From NCBI GenBank assembly GCA_020438595.1, contig JAGQUI010000187.1, positions 1 through 5,938 on the forward strand: a DNA stretch of 5,938 nt. Reading direction: 5' to 3'. The notes under the pieces were generated by a model, which made no database searches, had not been told where the DNA came from, and saw only the letters and a list, made by a program, of their open reading frames with translations. Source of the DNA: Propionibacteriaceae bacterium. Its GTDB lineage: Bacteria; Actinomycetota; Actinomycetes; Propionibacteriales; Propionibacteriaceae. Below, piece by piece: positions 159 to 5,938 of the stretch. The position numbers and the translations under genes are program-made. How positions within the stretch are numbered: position 1 is the stretch's first letter; every line of letters begins with the position of its first letter.

Positions 159-773
159 TCAGCCCAGCGCGAGCACCAATTCGTCCCCGGAGCGTACGAA
201 GCCGATCCGCTCCAGGTAGTGGCGCGACATCTCCGAGTCCGCCCCGGCCGTGATCCGTTCGAAGCCGGCGCCGGTGAACACGCGGGCGCCGCGGCCGTAG
301 AGCCACCGCCCGATGCGTGAATCGCGGTACGCGTGCATCACGTAGTCCAGCCGGAGCCGCAGCGTGCTCCCGTCCGGGGTGCCGACGAACGCGCCCGCGG
401 GCAGGCCGTCCCGGATCAGGACGAGCACGAAGTCGTCGGGCGCCGGCTCGTCGAAGTCCGGGTGGATGCCGGCGATGTCGGCAGCGTGCGAGTGCAGGAA
501 GTCGAGCAGGAACGGCGCGTCCGGGTCGATCGGCACCGCACCGAGGTCGCGGTTCGGGGCGAACTCCTTGCGCAGGAACCAGATGTTGAGCACGGCCACG
601 GCCGCGTTCGTGATGATGATCGGGATCGACGGCAGCAACGCCCCGTAGACCACGAACACCACCGAGCCCACCAGCGAGACGATGCGCAGCCGAACCACCG
701 ATGTCATCGCGAGCGACGCCACGACGAGCGCGGACGCCAGGTAGCCGACCAGTTCCACCGGGCTGAATCCCAT
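159..773 (-). CDS. YgjV-type inner membrane protein with C-terminal GNAT-like domain
   Basis: A 204-residue protein starting at ATG 771-773. The first ~70 residues hold three hydrophobic helices (about 6-25, 30-46 and 49-66), separated by short loops and ending in the basic sequence FLRKEF. This is the arrangement of the small YgjV-type inner membrane proteins. Residues ~85-204 are soluble, probably cytoplasmic, and resemble the end of a GNAT acyltransferase fold: a strand (LRLRLDYV), then YRDSRIGRWLY in the position of the acetyl-CoA pyrophosphate loop, then GFERITAGADSEMSRHYLERIGF, which fits the usual strand, helix and 'yyeklGF' ending. The loop reads R150-x-x-R153-x-G155 instead of the canonical R/Q-x-x-G-x-G/A, so catalysis is uncertain. 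The N-terminal part of the GNAT fold is not clearly recognisable. It is divergent from the gene at 805. No Shine-Dalgarno is seen, which fits a leaderless message. The substrate is unknown. Confidence 0.8.
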   Translation of the reverse strand: MGFSPVELVGYLASALVVASLAMTSVVRLRIVSLVGSVVFVVYGALLPSIPIIITNAAVAVLNIWFLRKEFAPNRDLGAVPIDPDAPFLLDFLHSHAADIAGIHPDFDEPAPDDFVLVLIRDGLPAGAFVGTPDGSTLRLRLDYVMHAYRDSRIGRWLYGRGARVFTGAGFERITAGADSEMSRHYLERIGFVRSGDELVLALG

Positions 774-804: not shown

Positions 805-1215
805 GTGCCTAAACAGCCAGAGCAGCCGCAGGCCCGGGGAGGCGAGGGATCGCTGCGCGCCCGGCTGCGGCTGGTGGCGGTGGTGCTGCTCGGCCTGCTC
901 ACCGCGACCTACCTGGTGCTCGCGGTGAAGCTGTACTTCTTCCCCGCCGTGGAGGCGGTGGCGAGCGGGCTGTTCGGCATCGTGCTCGCCGTGATCGCCC
1001 TGCTCTACGCGCTGGCGACCCGGGCCGTGCTGCGGCAGTCCCGGGTGGGGCACCTCCTCGCGGTCGTGCTGTGCGTGCTCGCCGTGGTCCTTGGCCTGAC
1101 GCCGGGCATGACCTGGATCGACTGGACGGTGCTGGGCGTGAACCTGGTCGCGGTCGCCGTGCTGCTCGGCTGCGTCCCGCGCAAGGCCCCGGACCGAGTT
1201 GGGGACGGTTCCTGA
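805..1215 (+). CDS. Small four-helix integral membrane protein, function unknown
   Basis: A 136-residue protein with a GTG start at 805-807, chosen because it lies 6 nt after a TANNNT hexamer and leaves a basic cytoplasmic-type N-terminus. Residues 1-22 are hydrophilic (Gln, Pro and Arg rich). Four hydrophobic segments follow at about 23-46, 51-73, 82-99 and 104-124. The C-terminal tail is short and basic. I see no catalytic motif and do not recognise a named family. The last seven residues (DRVGDGS) and the TGA stop at 1213-1215 are encoded inside the inverted repeat that begins at 1191. The natural C-terminus may therefore have been replaced or extended by repeat insertion. No partner is evident beyond the divergent membrane protein sharing its promoter region. 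Confidence 0.7.
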   Translation: MPKQPEQPQARGGEGSLRARLRLVAVVLLGLLTATYLVLAVKLYFFPAVEAVASGLFGIVLAVIALLYALATRAVLRQSRVGHLLAVVLCVLAVVLGLTPGMTWIDWTVLGVNLVAVAVLLGCVPRKAPDRVGDGS

Positions 1216-1268
1216 CTCGGTCCACCCCGGGCGGTGGACCGAGTCAGGAAACGTCCCCAACCCGGTCC
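1191..1268. repeat. Large inverted repeat (BIME-like hairpin) over the stop codon of the preceding gene
   Basis: The arms at 1191-1226 and 1233-1268 are reverse complements over 36 bp with two mismatches, around a 6-nt loop (CCGGGC). Each arm also contains its own smaller inverted pair: GGACCGAGT at 1191-1199 with ACTCGGTCC at 1215-1223, and GGACCGAGT at 1236-1244 with ACCCGGTCC at 1260-1268. The element can therefore fold as one long stem or two short hairpins, like a pair of inverted REP units. The 12-mer GGGGACGGTTCC at 1201-1212 is identical to the start of the repeats flanking the transposase gene, and the 9-mer GGACCGAGT recurs at 4497-4505. It covers the TGA of the membrane protein and lies 62 bp before the peptidase start. 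There is no T-tract, so any terminator role would be non-canonical. Confidence 0.85.
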
Positions 1269-1330: not shown

Positions 1331-3394
1331 ATGCCTCTCGATGCCGCGAACCCGCTGTCCGTTCCGTCCTCGCTGCCGTTCGAACTGCCCGACTTCACCG
1401 CGATCCGCGACGAGCACTACCAGCCGGCGATCGAGGCCGGCATCGCCGAGCACCTCGCCGAACTCGCCGCGATCGCGGCGGACGCGGAACCGGCGAGCGT
1501 CGCGAACGTGATCGAGGCCTGGGAGTCGGCCGGACGCCTGCTCGCCCGCGCGCTGAACGCCTTCTACACCAAGCAGCCGGCCGACACCAACGACGTCCTG
1601 GACGCCGTCGACGCCGCGGTGGCACCACAGCTCGCCGAGCACTCCGACGCGGTGTACCTCGACCGGGCGCTCTACGAGCGGGTGGCCGCACTGGCGAAGC
1701 GGGCCGCGGCGGGGGAGGTCGAGCTCGACGCGGCGTCCGCCTACTGGCTGGAGCGCCGCCTGCTCGCGTTCGAGCGGGCCGGGGTGAACCTGCCGGAGGC
1801 CGACCAGGCCCGGCTGCGGGCGCTGAACCACCGGATCGCCGAGGTGCAGTCCGAGTTCGGCCGCAAGGCGCTGGCCGGGATGAACGCCGGCGCGGTGCTG
1901 GTCACCGACGAGGCCGAGCTGGACGGGCTCAGCGCAGCGGAGGTCGCCGGTGCCCGCGAGCGTGCCGCCGAGCAGGGCCACGCGTCCGGCTGGCTGATCG
2001 AGCTGGGCAACACCTCGGGGCAGCGGCCGCTGGACGTGCTGAAGAACCGCGGCCTGCGCCGCCGGATCCACGAGGCGGCGGTCGGTCGGGGGCTCGGCGG
2101 CCCGCACGACACGCGTCCGCTGGTGGTCGAGCTGGCGCGGCTGCGCGCCGAGCGCGCCGACCTGCTCGGCTTCGCGAACCACGCCGCCTACGTGGCGGCG
2201 GACGGGTGTGCGCGTACCGGCGGGGCGGTCTGGGAGCTGCTCACGAAGCTGGCGCCGGCGGCCGTCGCGAACGCGCGTGCCGAGGCGGCCGACATGGAAC
2301 CGGTGTGGCAGCGGGTCGCGCCCGGCGAGCGCCTGGAGGCGTGGGACTGGCAGTTCGTCGCCGAGTTGCTGCGCACCGAGCGGTACAGCCTGGACGCGAC
2401 GCTGCTGCGCCCGTACCTCGAGCTGGAGCGGGTGCTGCACGAGGGGGTGTTCGCCGCGGCGAACGGTCTGTACGGGATCAGCTTCACCGAGCGGGACGAC
2501 CTGGTCGGGTACAACGATGAAGTACGCCTGTTCGAGGTTCAGGAGGCCGATGGCACGCCGGTCGGGTTGTTCGTCGCGGACTTCTACACGCGACCCGGGA
2601 AGCAGGGCGGCGCGTGGATGAACAACCTGGTCGACCAGAACCACCTGCTCGGCCAGCCGCCGGTGGTGGTCAACAACTCGAACCTGGTCAAGCCGCCGGC
2701 GGGTGAGCCGACCCTGATGACGTGGGACGACGTGATCACGCTGTTCCACGAGTTCGGGCACGCGCTGCACGGGTTGCTGTCGGACGTCCGCTACCCGTCC
2801 CAGTCGGGCACCGAGACGCCGCGCGACTTCGTCGAGTACCCGTCCCAGGTGAACGAGGTGTGGGCGCTGGACGCCGGGATCCTGCCGCGGTACGCCGTGC
2901 ACCACGCGACCGGCGAGCCGATGCCGGCGGAGTGGGTGGAGACGTTGCGCGGCTCGACGCTGTTCCAGCAGGGGTTCAAGACCACCGAGTACCTGGGTGC
3001 GGCGCTGCTCGACCAGGTGTGGCACCGGACGCCCCTGGCGGAGCTGCCCACCGATCCGGAGCAGGTGGAGGAGTTCGAGCGGGCGGCGCTCGCGTCCGTC
3101 GGCCTCGACTACGGGCTGGTGCCGCCGCGCTACCGCTCGACGTACTTCCGGCACACGTTCGAAGGCGGCTACGACGCGGGTTACTACGCCTACATCTGGT
3201 CCGCGGTGCTGGACGCGGACACGGCGGCGTTCATCCGCGCCCGCGGCGGCCTGACCAGGGAGAACGGCGAGCGCTTCCGCCGCCGGCTGCTCGCCCGCGG
3301 TGGCTCGATCGACGCCATGGACGCCTTCCGTGACTACCGCGGCGCCGACCCTGAACTCCGCCACCTCGTGGAGCGCCGCGGCCTGTCCGTCTAG
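1331..3394 (+). CDS. dcp: Peptidyl-dipeptidase Dcp, M3A zinc metallopeptidase
   Basis: A 687-residue cytoplasmic-type enzyme with no signal peptide. Dcp-type members of M3A remove dipeptides from the C-terminus of oligopeptides and act in intracellular peptide turnover. The zinc site is complete: HEFGH at residues 473-477 (H473 and H477 as ligands, E474 as catalytic base), and the third ligand E502 in RDFVEYPSQ. The substrate-binding stretch HTFEGGYDAGYYAYIW begins near residue 608. The C-terminal signature GGLTRENGERFRRRLLARGG, followed by a short RDYRG-type ending, matches E. coli Dcp closely from memory, and the length is close to the ~680 residues usual for Dcp. Oligopeptidase A (PrlC) is the main alternative, but the ending and the PSQVNEVWA region favour Dcp. 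Translation starts at ATG 1331 behind AAGGA. The TAG stop at 3392-3394 touches the first transposase-associated repeat. It appears monocistronic. Confidence 0.93.
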   Translation: MPLDAANPLSVPSSLPFELPDFTAIRDEHYQPAIEAGIAEHLAELAAIAADAEPASVANVIEAWESAGRLLARALNAFYTKQPADTNDVLDAVDAAVAPQLAEHSDAVYLDRALYERVAALAKRAAAGEVELDAASAYWLERRLLAFERAGVNLPEADQARLRALNHRIAEVQSEFGRKALAGMNAGAVLVTDEAELDGLSAAEVAGARERAAEQGHASGWLIELGNTSGQRPLDVLKNRGLRRRIHEAAVGRGLGGPHDTRPLVVELARLRAERADLLGFANHAAYVAADGCARTGGAVWELLTKLAPAAVANARAEAADMEPVWQRVAPGERLEAWDWQFVAELLRTERYSLDATLLRPYLELERVLHEGVFAAANGLYGISFTERDDLVGYNDEVRLFEVQEADGTPVGLFVADFYTRPGKQGGAWMNNLVDQNHLLGQPPVVVNNSNLVKPPAGEPTLMTWDDVITLFHEFGHALHGLLSDVRYPSQSGTETPRDFVEYPSQVNEVWALDAGILPRYAVHHATGEPMPAEWVETLRGSTLFQQGFKTTEYLGAALLDQVWHRTPLAELPTDPEQVEEFERAALASVGLDYGLVPPRYRSTYFRHTFEGGYDAGYYAYIWSAVLDADTAAFIRARGGLTRENGERFRRRLLARGGSIDAMDAFRDYRGADPELRHLVERRGLSV

Positions 3395-3430
3395 CGGGGA
3401 CGGTTCCGGACGGTCCGGCTTTTCCACAGG
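3395..3430 (+). repeat. REP-like repeat copy A
   Basis: A 36-nt unit identical to copy B. It starts CGGGGACGG, contains an imperfect hairpin (GGACGGTTC at 3398-3406, C, GGACGGTCC at 3408-3416, with one G-G mismatch and one G-T wobble), and ends in the tail CTTTTCCACAGG. An alternative perfect hairpin, CCGGAC-G-GTCCGG, lies at 3406-3418. CGTCCCCG at 3442-3449 can pair with the first 8 bases. It begins directly after the TAG stop of dcp. Confidence 0.88.
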
Positions 3431-3454
3431 CGGACGGCACGCGTCCCCGAGAGC

Positions 3455-3490
3455 CGGGGACGGTTCCGGACGGTCCGGCTTTTCCACAGG
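3455..3490 (+). repeat. REP-like repeat copy B
   Basis: Identical over all 36 nt to copy A and starting 60 nt after it. The imperfect hairpin lies at 3458-3476 and the tail CTTTTCCACAGG at 3479-3490. GTCCCCG at 3496-3502 can pair with its first 7 bases. The identity of A and B points to recent duplication or gene conversion. Confidence 0.88.
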
Positions 3491-3509
3491 GGCGTGTCCC
3501 CGACAGGAC

Positions 3510-3519
3510 ATGTCCACAG
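3510..3519 (+). repeat. Degenerate inner tail box, left side
   Basis: ATGTCCACAG lies 29-30 nt inside the end of copy B and is the exact reverse complement of 4424-4433 on the other flank. It resembles the CCACAG end of the 36-nt repeats and lies on the palindrome GGACATGTCC (3506-3515). It is probably a third, decayed or alternative recognition tail. It differs by one base from the actinobacterial DnaA box TTGTCCACA. Confidence 0.5.
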
Positions 3520-3565
3520 GGCGGCCAGTGGGCAGGCGGCTTCTGCCCGATTGTCCTCCGAAGGA

Positions 3566-4351
3566 TCAGATGAGTTCTCGGGACGGATGGGGACGCGCAA
3601 CGTGCATCCGCTTCACCGCGGACGCGCTCAGCCCCGTGATTCTGCTGATCTGCTCGTACGGGACGGATCGCAGGCGCAGGTCGCGGATTCCCCGATGCTG
3701 CGCCGCGAGACTCAGCGCGCCGAACTCCACGGGCGTTGCCGCGCCCGTCGCGCGGTGGAGCAACTCGGCCGCCCGATCGTCGCTGCGCTGCGGCCGACGG
3801 CGTTCGTCGGGCATCGGATCGTCCGGCAACGCCGGTGGCAACTCGGCGATGTGCGCCAGCACTGCACCGCCAAGAAGGCGCCGCAGCTCCTCTCCGTCCA
3901 CCGCGCTCGAAGGTCTGCCCAGAAGCCGACGGCTGCTCCACCTGTAGTCGTCCGCCCGCTCTACGAGTCCGGCCTCGACCGGGTTGTCCCAGACGTAGCG
4001 GATCAGCTTCACCAGGTACTCGCCGGTCTCCACGGGCCGGCTCTTGAACCGGTCCTGGAAGAGGTGACCCACGCGTCCGTACTTGTGGTTGAACCATCCG
4101 GCGTACCGGACGCCGACTCGCTTGACGACGCTTCCGATCGGCTCCCTCGTGGTGCGCAGCACGAGATGGACGTGGTTGGTCATCAGGCAGTAGGCCAGAA
4201 CCAGGCACCCGGAGGCCGCCTTGGCCTGCGCCAACGATTGGAGGAACCGCTCCCGATCCTCATCCTCAAGGAAGATCGCGTCGCGGTTCACGCCGCGCAG
4301 CATCACGTGGTAGATCCTCGAATCGGCGTGCTGTCTGGCGTGTCGAGGCAT
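3566..4351 (-). CDS. REP-associated tyrosine transposase (RAYT), Y1/HUH superfamily
   Basis: A 261-residue protein. Y1 transposases nick single-stranded DNA at hairpin-bearing ends through a 5'-phosphotyrosine. The RAYT branch recognises and processes REP hairpins. The fold begins with IYHVMLRGVNRDAIF (residues 13-27). The metal-binding HUH motif is H60-V-H62 in MTNHVHLVLR. The family-typical GHLFQDRFKSRPV follows at 95-107, then YLVKLIRYVWDNPVEAGLV at 112-130, where Y119 is the likely nucleophile, and YRWSS at 136-140. All key residues are present and the frame is intact, so it may be active. Residues ~195-250 form a C-terminal extension with a helix-turn-helix look (PYEQISRITGLSASAVKRMH), which may bind the repeats. 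The ATG at 4349-4351 is chosen because it follows AGGAGGA and opens the domain correctly. A weak TAGGCT hexamer at 4385-4380 may be its promoter. The gene lies between inverted REP-like pairs. Confidence 0.92.
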   Translation of the reverse strand: MPRHARQHADSRIYHVMLRGVNRDAIFLEDEDRERFLQSLAQAKAASGCLVLAYCLMTNHVHLVLRTTREPIGSVVKRVGVRYAGWFNHKYGRVGHLFQDRFKSRPVETGEYLVKLIRYVWDNPVEAGLVERADDYRWSSRRLLGRPSSAVDGEELRRLLGGAVLAHIAELPPALPDDPMPDERRRPQRSDDRAAELLHRATGAATPVEFGALSLAAQHRGIRDLRLRSVPYEQISRITGLSASAVKRMHVARPHPSRELI

Positions 4352-4353
4352 GG

Positions 4354-4360
4354 TCCTCCT
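4354..4360 (-). promoter_or_regulatory. Ribosome binding site of the RAYT gene
   Basis: AGGAGGA on the minus strand ends 2 nt before the ATG at 4351. It matches the anti-Shine-Dalgarno very well, but the spacing is shorter than usual. It decides the start of the transposase gene, because the open frame continues upstream to 5209 without any family sequence. Confidence 0.6.
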
Positions 4361-4423
4361 GACTCCACGGAGGAGATCGAGCCTAGGCAACTGGCCGGCG
4401 AGTCTGGATGCCCGGCCGCGGAT

Positions 4424-4433
4424 CTGTGGACAT
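4424..4433 (-). repeat. Degenerate inner tail box, right side
   Basis: Read on the minus strand this is ATGTCCACAG, exactly matching the left inner box at 3510-3519 in inverted orientation. It lies 30 nt inside the tail of copy C, mirroring the left flank. It continues the terminal inverted symmetry of the cassette beyond the two full repeats. Confidence 0.5.
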
Positions 4434-4453
4434 CTCGTAGCGATTCGGCGAGA

Positions 4454-4489
4454 CCTGTGGATAACCCGGACGGTTGGGAACCGTCCCCG
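4454..4489 (-). repeat. REP-like repeat copy C (divergent)
   Basis: The minus-strand unit matches copies A and B at 31 of 36 positions. The changes keep the hairpin: on the plus strand GGACGGTT (4468-4475), loop GGG and AACCGTCC (4479-4486) form a perfect 8-bp stem, and the mid-stem G-G mismatch of the other copies is repaired. Its tail reads GGTTATCCACAGG and contains the exact DnaA box TTATCCACA (minus strand, 4464-4456). Confidence 0.85.
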
Positions 4490-4513
4490 GATCTCCGGAC
4501 CGAGTGCCGGATT

Positions 4514-4549
4514 CCTGTGGAAAAGCCGGACCGTTCGGAACCGTCCCCG
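4514..4549 (-). repeat. REP-like repeat copy D
   Basis: The minus-strand unit is identical to copies A and B except for one base, which turns a G-T wobble in the hairpin stem into an A-T pair. The stem occupies 4528-4546 and the tail CTTTTCCACAGG runs 4525-4514. It starts 60 nt from copy C and lies one base beyond the TGA stop of the lipoprotein gene, so on the minus strand it is the immediate 3' flank of that gene. Confidence 0.88.
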
Positions 4550-4550
4550 A

Positions 4551-5621
4551 TCAGCGGAGGGTGTCGAGGTAGAAGATGCTGGCGAGGCGTCGGGGGCCGT
4601 CGGGGTCGGGACGGGAGGCGAAGCCGAAGCACAGCCGCGGGGTGCCGTTGACCACGTCGACGGCGAGGCCCTCGGGCTCGCGGTACGCCAGCGAGCGGCC
4701 GATTCGGATCCGGCGCTGCTGGACGATCCGGCCGGTGCGCAGGTCGATCGCCGAGAGGAACGTGTTGAACGGATCGGACGCCGTGCCGGCGTGCCCGCCG
4801 GTGCCGACCCACGTGTAGACGTAGGAGCCCAGCACCGTGAACGCCTGCAGCACCGGGGTGCCGCCATCGGGCTGCAGACGGGTGTTCGACGGCTCGGGAA
4901 TCGCAGCGAGCGGGCGGCCGAAGTCGCCCTGCGTGGCGTCCGCGAGTCGGTAGAGCCGGTAGGTCGTGGCCTGGCCGTCGAACCGGCGCACCAGCAGCCG
5001 CTTCGCCACCGGGTCGATCGCACAGCCCACCTCGGGGCTGCCGGTGAGGAACTTCTCCACCTTCGGACGCCGGCCCGGCGCGAACCGGAACCGCGCCAGC
5101 GCCGTCCCCCGGCCGGCACGGGTGTTCTCGGTCGCATCCGACTCGAACCACAGGTACGACTTCGACCCGACCGACTCCACGCCGAACGACTGGCCGTGCC
5201 CGGCGTCATTCACGTGCACGTGGCCGAGCACCTTGCCGTGCCGACCCACCTGGTTGATGCACAGGTCCGCGCCGGGCCGCCCGTCCCGTCCCTGCACGGC
5301 GAACAGCCGGTGGTTGGCGGTGTCGTAGCCGATGCCCTGCATGGTGCTGTCCGACTCGTGCAGCCGGACCTCGCGCAGCGCCACCCGCGGCCGCGTGGCC
5401 AGGTCGAACCGGGCGGACGGGCGGATCCCGGCGGGCGTCGCCGCGGTCGGCGCCGTGGTCGGGGCGGTCGGACGGGTCGTGGCGGACGCGGGACGCCCGC
5501 TCGGCGGCGGCGCCTGACGTTGCGCGTTCGAGGCGCCGGACGGGGTCGTGCACCCGGCGGCGGCCAGCCCGACACCGGCCAGCAGCAGGCTGCGGCGCGA
5601 CCAGGTGTCGGGCGCGGACAC
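4551..5621 (-). CDS. Tat-exported lipoprotein with TagC-like beta-propeller domain
   Basis: A 356-residue protein with a GTG start at 5619-5621. The N-terminus has a twin-arginine motif (S8-R-R-S-L-L-L), a hydrophobic core, and a lipobox ending at C24 (LAAAGC). It is therefore predicted to be exported folded by Tat and lipid-anchored outside the cell. Residues ~25-68 are a Pro/Thr/Ala-rich linker. The rest is strand-rich and resembles the extracellular 'teichoic acid biosynthesis protein C'-like propeller proteins of actinomycetes, with MQGIGYDTANHRLFAVQ, DLCINQV, GHGQSFGVESVGSKSYLWFESDA and RGTALARFRF as recognisable blades. No active-site motif is seen. A binding or structural role at the cell surface is inferred from the family; the teichoic-acid name comes from annotation history rather than proof. 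The start lies 2 nt after the TAA of threonine synthase, so the two are probably cotranscribed. Its TGA stop is one base from repeat D. Confidence 0.8.
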   Translation of the reverse strand: MSAPDTWSRRSLLLAGVGLAAAGCTTPSGASNAQRQAPPPSGRPASATTRPTAPTTAPTAATPAGIRPSARFDLATRPRVALREVRLHESDSTMQGIGYDTANHRLFAVQGRDGRPGADLCINQVGRHGKVLGHVHVNDAGHGQSFGVESVGSKSYLWFESDATENTRAGRGTALARFRFAPGRRPKVEKFLTGSPEVGCAIDPVAKRLLVRRFDGQATTYRLYRLADATQGDFGRPLAAIPEPSNTRLQPDGGTPVLQAFTVLGSYVYTWVGTGGHAGTASDPFNTFLSAIDLRTGRIVQQRRIRIGRSLAYREPEGLAVDVVNGTPRLCFGFASRPDPDGPRRLASIFYLDTLR

Positions 5622-5623
5622 GG

Positions 5624-5938
5624 TTACGTCCCGACTCGTTGCGCGATCAGGGCCTTCAGCGCCGCCGCATCGTTGGGCAGCTGCACGACGTGGCGGGGCA
5701 GGTCCTCGAGCCCGGCGAACCGCTCGGGACGCTCGGGCTCGCGTCCGATCGCCTCCACGATCGTCCCGGCGAACTTCACCGGCAGCGCGGTCTCGGTCAC
5801 CACCAGCGGCACGCCGTCACGGACGAACCGCCGTGCCACCTGCACCCCGTCCGCGGTGTGCGGATCGACCAGCACGCCGTCGCGCTCCCACACCGAGGCG
5901 ATGTTGGCCAGCCGGTCGGCGTGGGTCGACGAACCCGA
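5624..5938 (-). CDS. thrC: Threonine synthase, C-terminal part (5' end outside window)
   Basis: The last 104 residues of a gene entering from the right edge; the frame is open to 5938 and ends in TAA at 5624-5626. Threonine synthase is a PLP enzyme converting O-phosphohomoserine to threonine and phosphate, the last step of the pathway. The visible part reads THADRLANIASVWERDGVLVDPHTADGV, then ETALPVKFAGTIVEAIG, and ends LPRHVVQLPNDAAALKALI. This parallels the E. coli ThrC C-terminus (TAHPAKF...VEAILG...LPADFAALRKLM), so it belongs to the long, E. coli/yeast-like class. The PLP lysine and the N-terminal domain lie outside the window. The downstream lipoprotein gene follows after 2 nt. Confidence 0.87.
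   Translation of the reverse strand, partial: SGSSTHADRLANIASVWERDGVLVDPHTADGVQVARRFVRDGVPLVVTETALPVKFAGTIVEAIGREPERPERFAGLEDLPRHVVQLPNDAAALKALIAQRVGT

Follow-up and report, generated by a model that had tools for sequence, protein, structure and literature searches.

A probable TIRtron of a Propionibacteriaceae-type actinobacterium with DnaA-box matches in its terminal repeats and upstream of its Y1 transposase gene

TIRtrons and TIRYTs, named by the Di Nocera group in 2013 (PMC3733652), are the closest described systems to the element considered here; GGGGWSAS is given for some of their terminal inverted repeats (TIRs), and the words actinobacteria, actinomyc-, streptomyces, mycobact- and frankia are absent from the main text of that paper. 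In the available text of Quentin et al. 2018 (PMC6006769), 20 of 26 TIRYTs fall in subclass 2.1, the TIRYT subclass shows helix-turn-helix (HTH) C-termini, some of them Bac_DnaA_C-like, and the Actinobacteridae sample contains subclass 1.1 alone, which is IS200-type. The same text quotes TT[AT]TNCACA as the DnaA box consensus, which according to it the published repeats do not resemble, and describes the cleavage and rejoining of REP sequences by E. coli TnpAREP. A literature search, run largely outside subscription journals, returned no actinobacterial TIRYT and no further paper linking DnaA with RAYT or TIRYT in the manner set out below.

The window (the whole 5,938-nt stretch of DNA analysed) is considered to contain a TIRtron of a Propionibacteriaceae-type actinobacterium, in which a Y1/HuH transposase gene lies in composite TIRs and belongs to a clade whose upstream DnaA-type boxes predict control by DnaA; this reading is given a probability of about 0.7. 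Within the published scheme the element is probably a member of subclass 2.1. The TIRtron itself is of a known kind; what is new is the DnaA-box match in every repeat unit together with a box at a fixed place upstream of the clade genes. The initial annotation had assigned the locus to the REP/RAYT systems: its call of a RAYT-type Y1 transposase in an actinobacterium is borne out, while published TIRtrons and TIRYTs fit the element better than the GTAG REP/RAYT systems do.

Table 1. Features of the element and its neighbours, in window coordinates.
Feature	Position	Strand	Remarks
dcp, M3-family peptidyl-dipeptidase, neighbour	1331..3394	+	profile matches
Y1/HuH transposase gene (TIRYT/RAYT type), 261 aa	3566..4351	-	Pfam Y1_Tnp E 6.7e-12
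thrC 3' end, threonine synthase, neighbour	5624..5938	-	profile matches; cut by window end
Left arm of composite terminal inverted repeat	3386..3490		82% complementary to 4454-4558
Right arm of composite terminal inverted repeat	4454..4558		pairs with 3386-3490
Repeat unit A	3395..3430	+	window sequence comparison
Repeat unit B	3455..3490	+	same as A; window sequence comparison
Repeat unit C	4454..4489	-	inverted; 5 differences from A (31/36 positions equal)
Repeat unit D	4514..4549	-	inverted; 1 difference from A
DnaA-box match TTTTCCACA in unit A	3420..3428	+	
DnaA-box match TTTTCCACA in unit B	3480..3488	+	
DnaA-box match TTATCCACA in unit C	4456..4464	-	equivalent to distal promoter box (-113)
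DnaA-box match TTTTCCACA in unit D	4516..4524	-	
Degenerate proximal promoter box ATGTCCACA (-82)	4425..4433	-	one mismatch
Mirrored proximal-box copy ATGTCCACA, 3' side of gene	3510..3518	+	contains TCCACAG; inside stretch 3507-3534 / 4409-4436
Putative -10 element TAGGCT (-34)	4380..4385	-	48 nt past proximal box start
Separate inverted GGGGAC unit pair, other tail (GGGGACGGTTCCTGACTCGGTCCACC)	1199..1260		REPIN-like; without adjoining transposase

Sequence comparison confirmed the four 36-nt units described in the initial annotation, with A and B identical on the left and C and D inverted on the right, as well as the start-to-start spacing of 60 nt in the A/B and C/D pairs alike and the likeness of the 24-nt linkers, which once oriented agree at 15 of 24 positions. 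The units of the composite repeat are GGGGACGG, with the core GGGGAC. The proposal of long imperfect TIRs built of two units each also stands, the arms being 105 nt each, and a weaker mirrored stretch of 28 nt (71%) lies further inward; folding lends the description of the units as hairpins weak support, the three distinct units (A being the same as B), folded as DNA, giving -4.6, -8.6 and -4.7 kcal/mol with z of 0.20, -1.89 and 0.10. The separate inverted pair of GGGGAC units is near-perfect and lies between a 136-aa ORF and dcp; the folding energy of the sequence around it (1197-1264) is -37.1 kcal/mol (z -10.29), tails like its own flank other transposases in loci L103 and L108, and the pair is possibly that of a second host transposase. 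Elsewhere in the window, the minus strand at 4551-5621 encodes a 356-aa protein that has an N-terminus lipoprotein-like by eye and weakly matches PF21311 (E 6.9e-08), a beta-propeller receptor-binding domain of phages, and at 159-773 (minus strand) a 204-aa protein with a weak N-terminal SemiSWEET match (19.4 bits, cut-off 80).

The window transposase scores 65 bits against REP_Tyr_transpos, the NCBIfam model of REP-associated tyrosine transposases, which is under the cut-off of 80; a PDB sequence search gave as its best match a repeat protein over short stretches, with E. coli TnpArep at E 0.63. Residues H60, H62, Y119 and N123 are invariant in 24 aligned homologues and are presumably catalytic. 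In Pfam the C-terminus of the window protein matches Sigma70_r4_2 alone, weakly (E 0.032, residues 230-249), and weak HTH_23 matches are found in the C-termini of 10 of the 24 homologues (best E 0.00048). Bac_DnaA_C is not among the matched families shown (25 of 30); a relationship of the C-terminus to DnaA domain IV was rejected, as profile comparison gave a probability of 0.1%.

The named relatives of the transposase and of Dcp, which are few, include Micropruina and Propionicimonas; in related loci the Dcp pieces are 72-91% identical and the clade transposases 49-63%. Out of 198 Propionibacteriaceae genomes 197 were searched, and the transposase is present in 19 of these, in G040 merely as a weak broken match; a class-level search matched 5 of 394 genomes, G005 strongly and the other four weakly or in part. 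The 34 transposase places gave 30 loci (four places had no locus); upstream regions were analysed for 28 of these, leaving out L110 and L099, the latter a weak and broken match. The window gene belongs to a 24-row clade with tree support of 100/96; besides the host, 16 clade genomes carry one to three transposase copies each, all diverged.

Of 28 whole-genome loci, 10 have the gene next to dcp and/or thrC: both genes stand beside it in L081, L082, L084, L086, L087, L090 and L093, thrC alone in L083 and L091, and dcp alone, within the examined stretch, in L096; L092, with thrC further off, was excluded from this count. L007 covers the same G005 copy over a longer stretch; there dcp is followed by thrC and then by the transposase gene, which thus does not lie between the other two. 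The dcp/thrC site of L086 (G003) has its transposase gene reversed relative to the window, as if flipped between its own inverted repeats or separately inserted. A single orthologous lineage kept at this site was found to be without tree support (8 changes against a shuffled mean of 9.5, 98 of 500 shuffles being as low); as the genes at the site do not form one clade, recurrent insertion, exchange and poor resolution are each possible. An ordinary IS200/IS605-like insertion sequence, moving whole, would likewise present a compact gene between terminal repeats, and the scatter of the dcp/thrC-site genes in the tree would allow repeated arrival there; this explanation is nevertheless considered highly improbable, as the diverged one to three copies per clade genome and the recurrence of the gene beside dcp and/or thrC both stand against it.

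The repeats on which the TIRtron reading draws recur around homologous genes. Among 80 homologue loci of several phyla, where some flanks are ended by contig ends, GGGGAC[AG] is present on both sides in the orientation of the window in 46 and in the opposite orientation in 2; in the clade, GGGGAC[AG]G units occur on both sides in 24 of 24 loci, and in the opposite orientation in none. The two sets overlap, some loci having been included in both with separate identifiers. The unit tails vary from locus to locus. A 60-nt period as a trait of the family was rejected, as the spacings in other loci range from 14 to 76 nt and the 60-nt period is peculiar to the window element. In 12 of the 17 clade loci that have at least two units per side, a spacing found on one side is matched to within 1 nt on the other, so the whole composite repeat behaves as one mirrored arm.

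The 19 Propionibacteriaceae genomes with the gene contain a median of 167 copies of GGGGACRGKYYC (14-368), against 13 (1-270) for the 178 without it, while the medians for a reversed-pattern control are 11 and 10, respectively; the Mann-Whitney p of 1.3e-11 for this difference treats the genomes as independent, which they are not. The expected dependence of copy number on the gene is seen in the medians and broken by 11 of the 178 genomes without a detected gene, which have at least 33 core copies (270 in G103), so that the link of the repeats to a present gene is strong, not strict. A search for any Y1_Tnp domain in 8 of those 11 genomes (G057, G066 and G086 being outside the test) found none; G103, G108 and G024, with 76-270 core copies and no Y1_Tnp found, could hold orphan repeat families, have lost their genes or be incomplete assemblies.

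In relatives the core repeats occur both singly and as inverted pairs, with plus/minus pairs at spacings of 44-78 nt in the stretches of G185 and G122 that were analysed. In 277 kb of G185, a stretch partly chosen around known repeats, 34 of 38 units fall outside called genes, as do 15 of 15 in 400 kb of G122; the gene calls come from a simple codon-usage script, which called 82% (G185) and 85% (G122) coding. The dispersal anticipated in the initial annotation is thus seen for the core in related genomes, while the window's own unit is rare there: its 35-nt form, allowing at most 3 mismatches, is present in 2 of 197 related genomes, at three places in G003 and one in G185.

The ends of all four units read TTTTCCACAGG or TTATCCACAGG and fit TT[AT]TNCACA; what had been taken for a different tail of an actinobacterial repeat is thus a fit to the DnaA box. 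A strict box occurs within 150 nt upstream of the gene in 23 of 29 loci (28 from Propionibacteriaceae and the window), where 0.0086 per 150 nt would be expected from the remainder of the same loci; the corresponding count for the other homologue loci (L009-L080) is 1 of 72. Among the 23 box-bearing loci, L098 does not belong to the clade; its box differs in position and is on the opposite strand. Clade genes have a proximal box that begins between -76 and -93, being exact in 20 of 24 loci, carrying one mismatch in three (the window, L081 and L084) and lost in L094; 16 of 24, L094 included, have a further TCCACA placed 29-32 nt upstream of the proximal-box place, and this is missing from L085, L088, L090, L093, L101, L102, L103 and L108. 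The motif TANNNT, a putative -10 element, follows 47-50 nt past the box start in 20 of the 24 loci. The conserved stretch at the promoter boxes is TTRTCCACAG; mean pairwise identity in 24 sequences (23 clade rows and L107, without L094) is 0.88 for the box and 0.32, near random, for the flanks. As the 24 clade loci share ancestry, this represents conservation within one clade and not 24 independent gains, and the homologues outside the clade indicate that the box is not needed for TIRtrons in general. Around dnaA in eight related genomes TTGTCCACAG is found 11 times, TTATCCACAG three times and TTTTCCACAG twice; the background amounts to 7 boxes for the 277 kb of G185, where a repeat pair and a transposase promoter account for three, and to 4 boxes for the 400 kb of G122. 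The presence of DnaA-box-like sequences in both promoter region and repeats suggests that activity of the element may be tied to DNA replication, and control of the transposase gene by DnaA, the initiator protein of chromosome replication, is the favoured prediction from the sequences.

The boxes could instead be an operator of the transposase itself, whose C-terminal HTH would bind them in an autoregulatory manner, with the likeness to DnaA boxes being convergent or inherited. The weak HTH_23 matches, the DnaA_C-like or other HTH domains noted for the subclass in the available text of PMC6006769, and the fact that the box-bearing clade is a clade of the transposase itself are consistent with an operator; it is considered unlikely, however, in view of the negative profile comparison with DnaA domain IV, the absence of Bac_DnaA_C among the families shown, the homologues of the same domain layout that go without the box outside the clade, and the identity of the sites to boxes around dnaA in the same genomes. 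A second alternative reads the unit on the opposite strand as a canonical REP, defined in the available text of PMC6006769 by a 5' GT[AG]G and a stem-loop; GTGG (from TCCACA) would then mark the hairpin base, with TCCACA acting as the enzyme's tetranucleotide guide rather than as a regulatory box. All units contain GTGG and none GTAG, and on the opposite strand of A and B a 5-bp hairpin is predicted five bases after GTGG, but hairpin folding is no stronger than that of shuffled sequences (z 0.04, -0.03, -1.92 and 0.83) and the 23 promoter-proximal boxes have no following hairpin on that strand (mean z 0.17, with 2 of 23 below -1.5). The conserved TTRTCCACAG is moreover longer than GTGG, and in 23 of 24 loci it does not occur on the 3' side of the gene, points which together make the REP reading very unlikely.

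The window is unusual in where its boxes lie. In the other clade loci they are placed between repeat and gene and are confined to the promoter side; of the 24 clade loci, the window alone also has a box 3' of the gene, inside the mirrored units. Upstream units with a box in their first 36 nt are seen in the window (both of two units) and in L105 (1 of 2). As the distal box of the window lies inside a repeat unit, a box is present in all four units and on both sides of the gene. The pattern GGGGACN{12,28}TTNTCCACAG, sought in 20 genomes (three that lack the gene and 17 of the 19 that have it), gave 13 matches, and 0 in a reversed control: two are transposase promoters (G003:C225 and G005:C19), eight make up four dispersed inverted pairs, of which three are in G003 and the fourth is in G185, and the remainder are a single unit in G047, one match in G185:C58 that looks like chance, and a small GGGGAC palindrome in G005 (L136, 1479-1532) with a TTATCCACA box mid-palindrome. 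Abundant box-bearing palindromes were not found, those of TTTTCCACAG occurring in 2 of 197 genomes, G003 and G018; the palindrome of two TTTTCCACAG sites in L115 (G018) belongs to a genome without the transposase. A bolder version, in which a HuH transposase lineage under DnaA control has taken the box into its mobile repeat, seeds new DnaA sites on the chromosome and spreads in a replication-coupled manner, is considered rather unlikely; if box-bearing repeats do spread, they would perhaps also draw on the DnaA pool.

By analogy with work on RAYTs, the enzyme would recognise the units as single-stranded DNA and cut near the GGGGAC core, and inverted unit pairs would spread to extragenic sites, the core being kept while tails may change between lineages. 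DnaA is hypothesized to bind the upstream boxes and so to tie transposase expression to the replication cycle, which would be the time when the single-stranded substrate of the enzyme is exposed. In the window, the repeats may have grown inward over the promoter box and then been mirrored to the other side of the gene.

The findings extend TIRtrons to an actinobacterial family, and boxes conserved in position upstream of a whole clade provide a testable link between the spreading of repeats and chromosome replication, when single-stranded substrates appear; they bear on the regulation of RAYT/TIRYT enzymes and on why hosts keep them. In common with TIRtrons and TIRYTs, the window element has a RAYT-related Y1 transposase, long TIRs with a GGGG core in place of GTAG REPs (its units contain no GTAG), possibly an HTH-like C-terminal extension (a weak match in the window) and, judging from related genomes, repeat families that occur singly, paired or grouped; it differs in being actinobacterial and in having boxes upstream of the gene and, in the window, within the repeats. 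Compared with GGGGWSAS, GGGGACGG has one mismatch, at the seventh position, and several relatives have GGGGACAG, which fits. Proteobacterial REP/RAYT systems and REPINs share the arrangement of a transposase gene flanked by short, dispersed extragenic repeats, often in inverted pairs, whereas the window units lack GTAG, contain GTGG only within the DnaA-box match, and accompany a protein under the REP_Tyr_transpos cut-off. With IS200/IS605 elements the Y1_Tnp domain is shared; unlike these, the window clade has composite repeats on both sides of genes that are present in few, diverged copies per genome. IS50/Tn5 carries a DnaA box in its transposon end, although its transposase is an unrelated DDE enzyme; in the window clade the boxes are also conserved upstream of the gene for the HuH enzyme.
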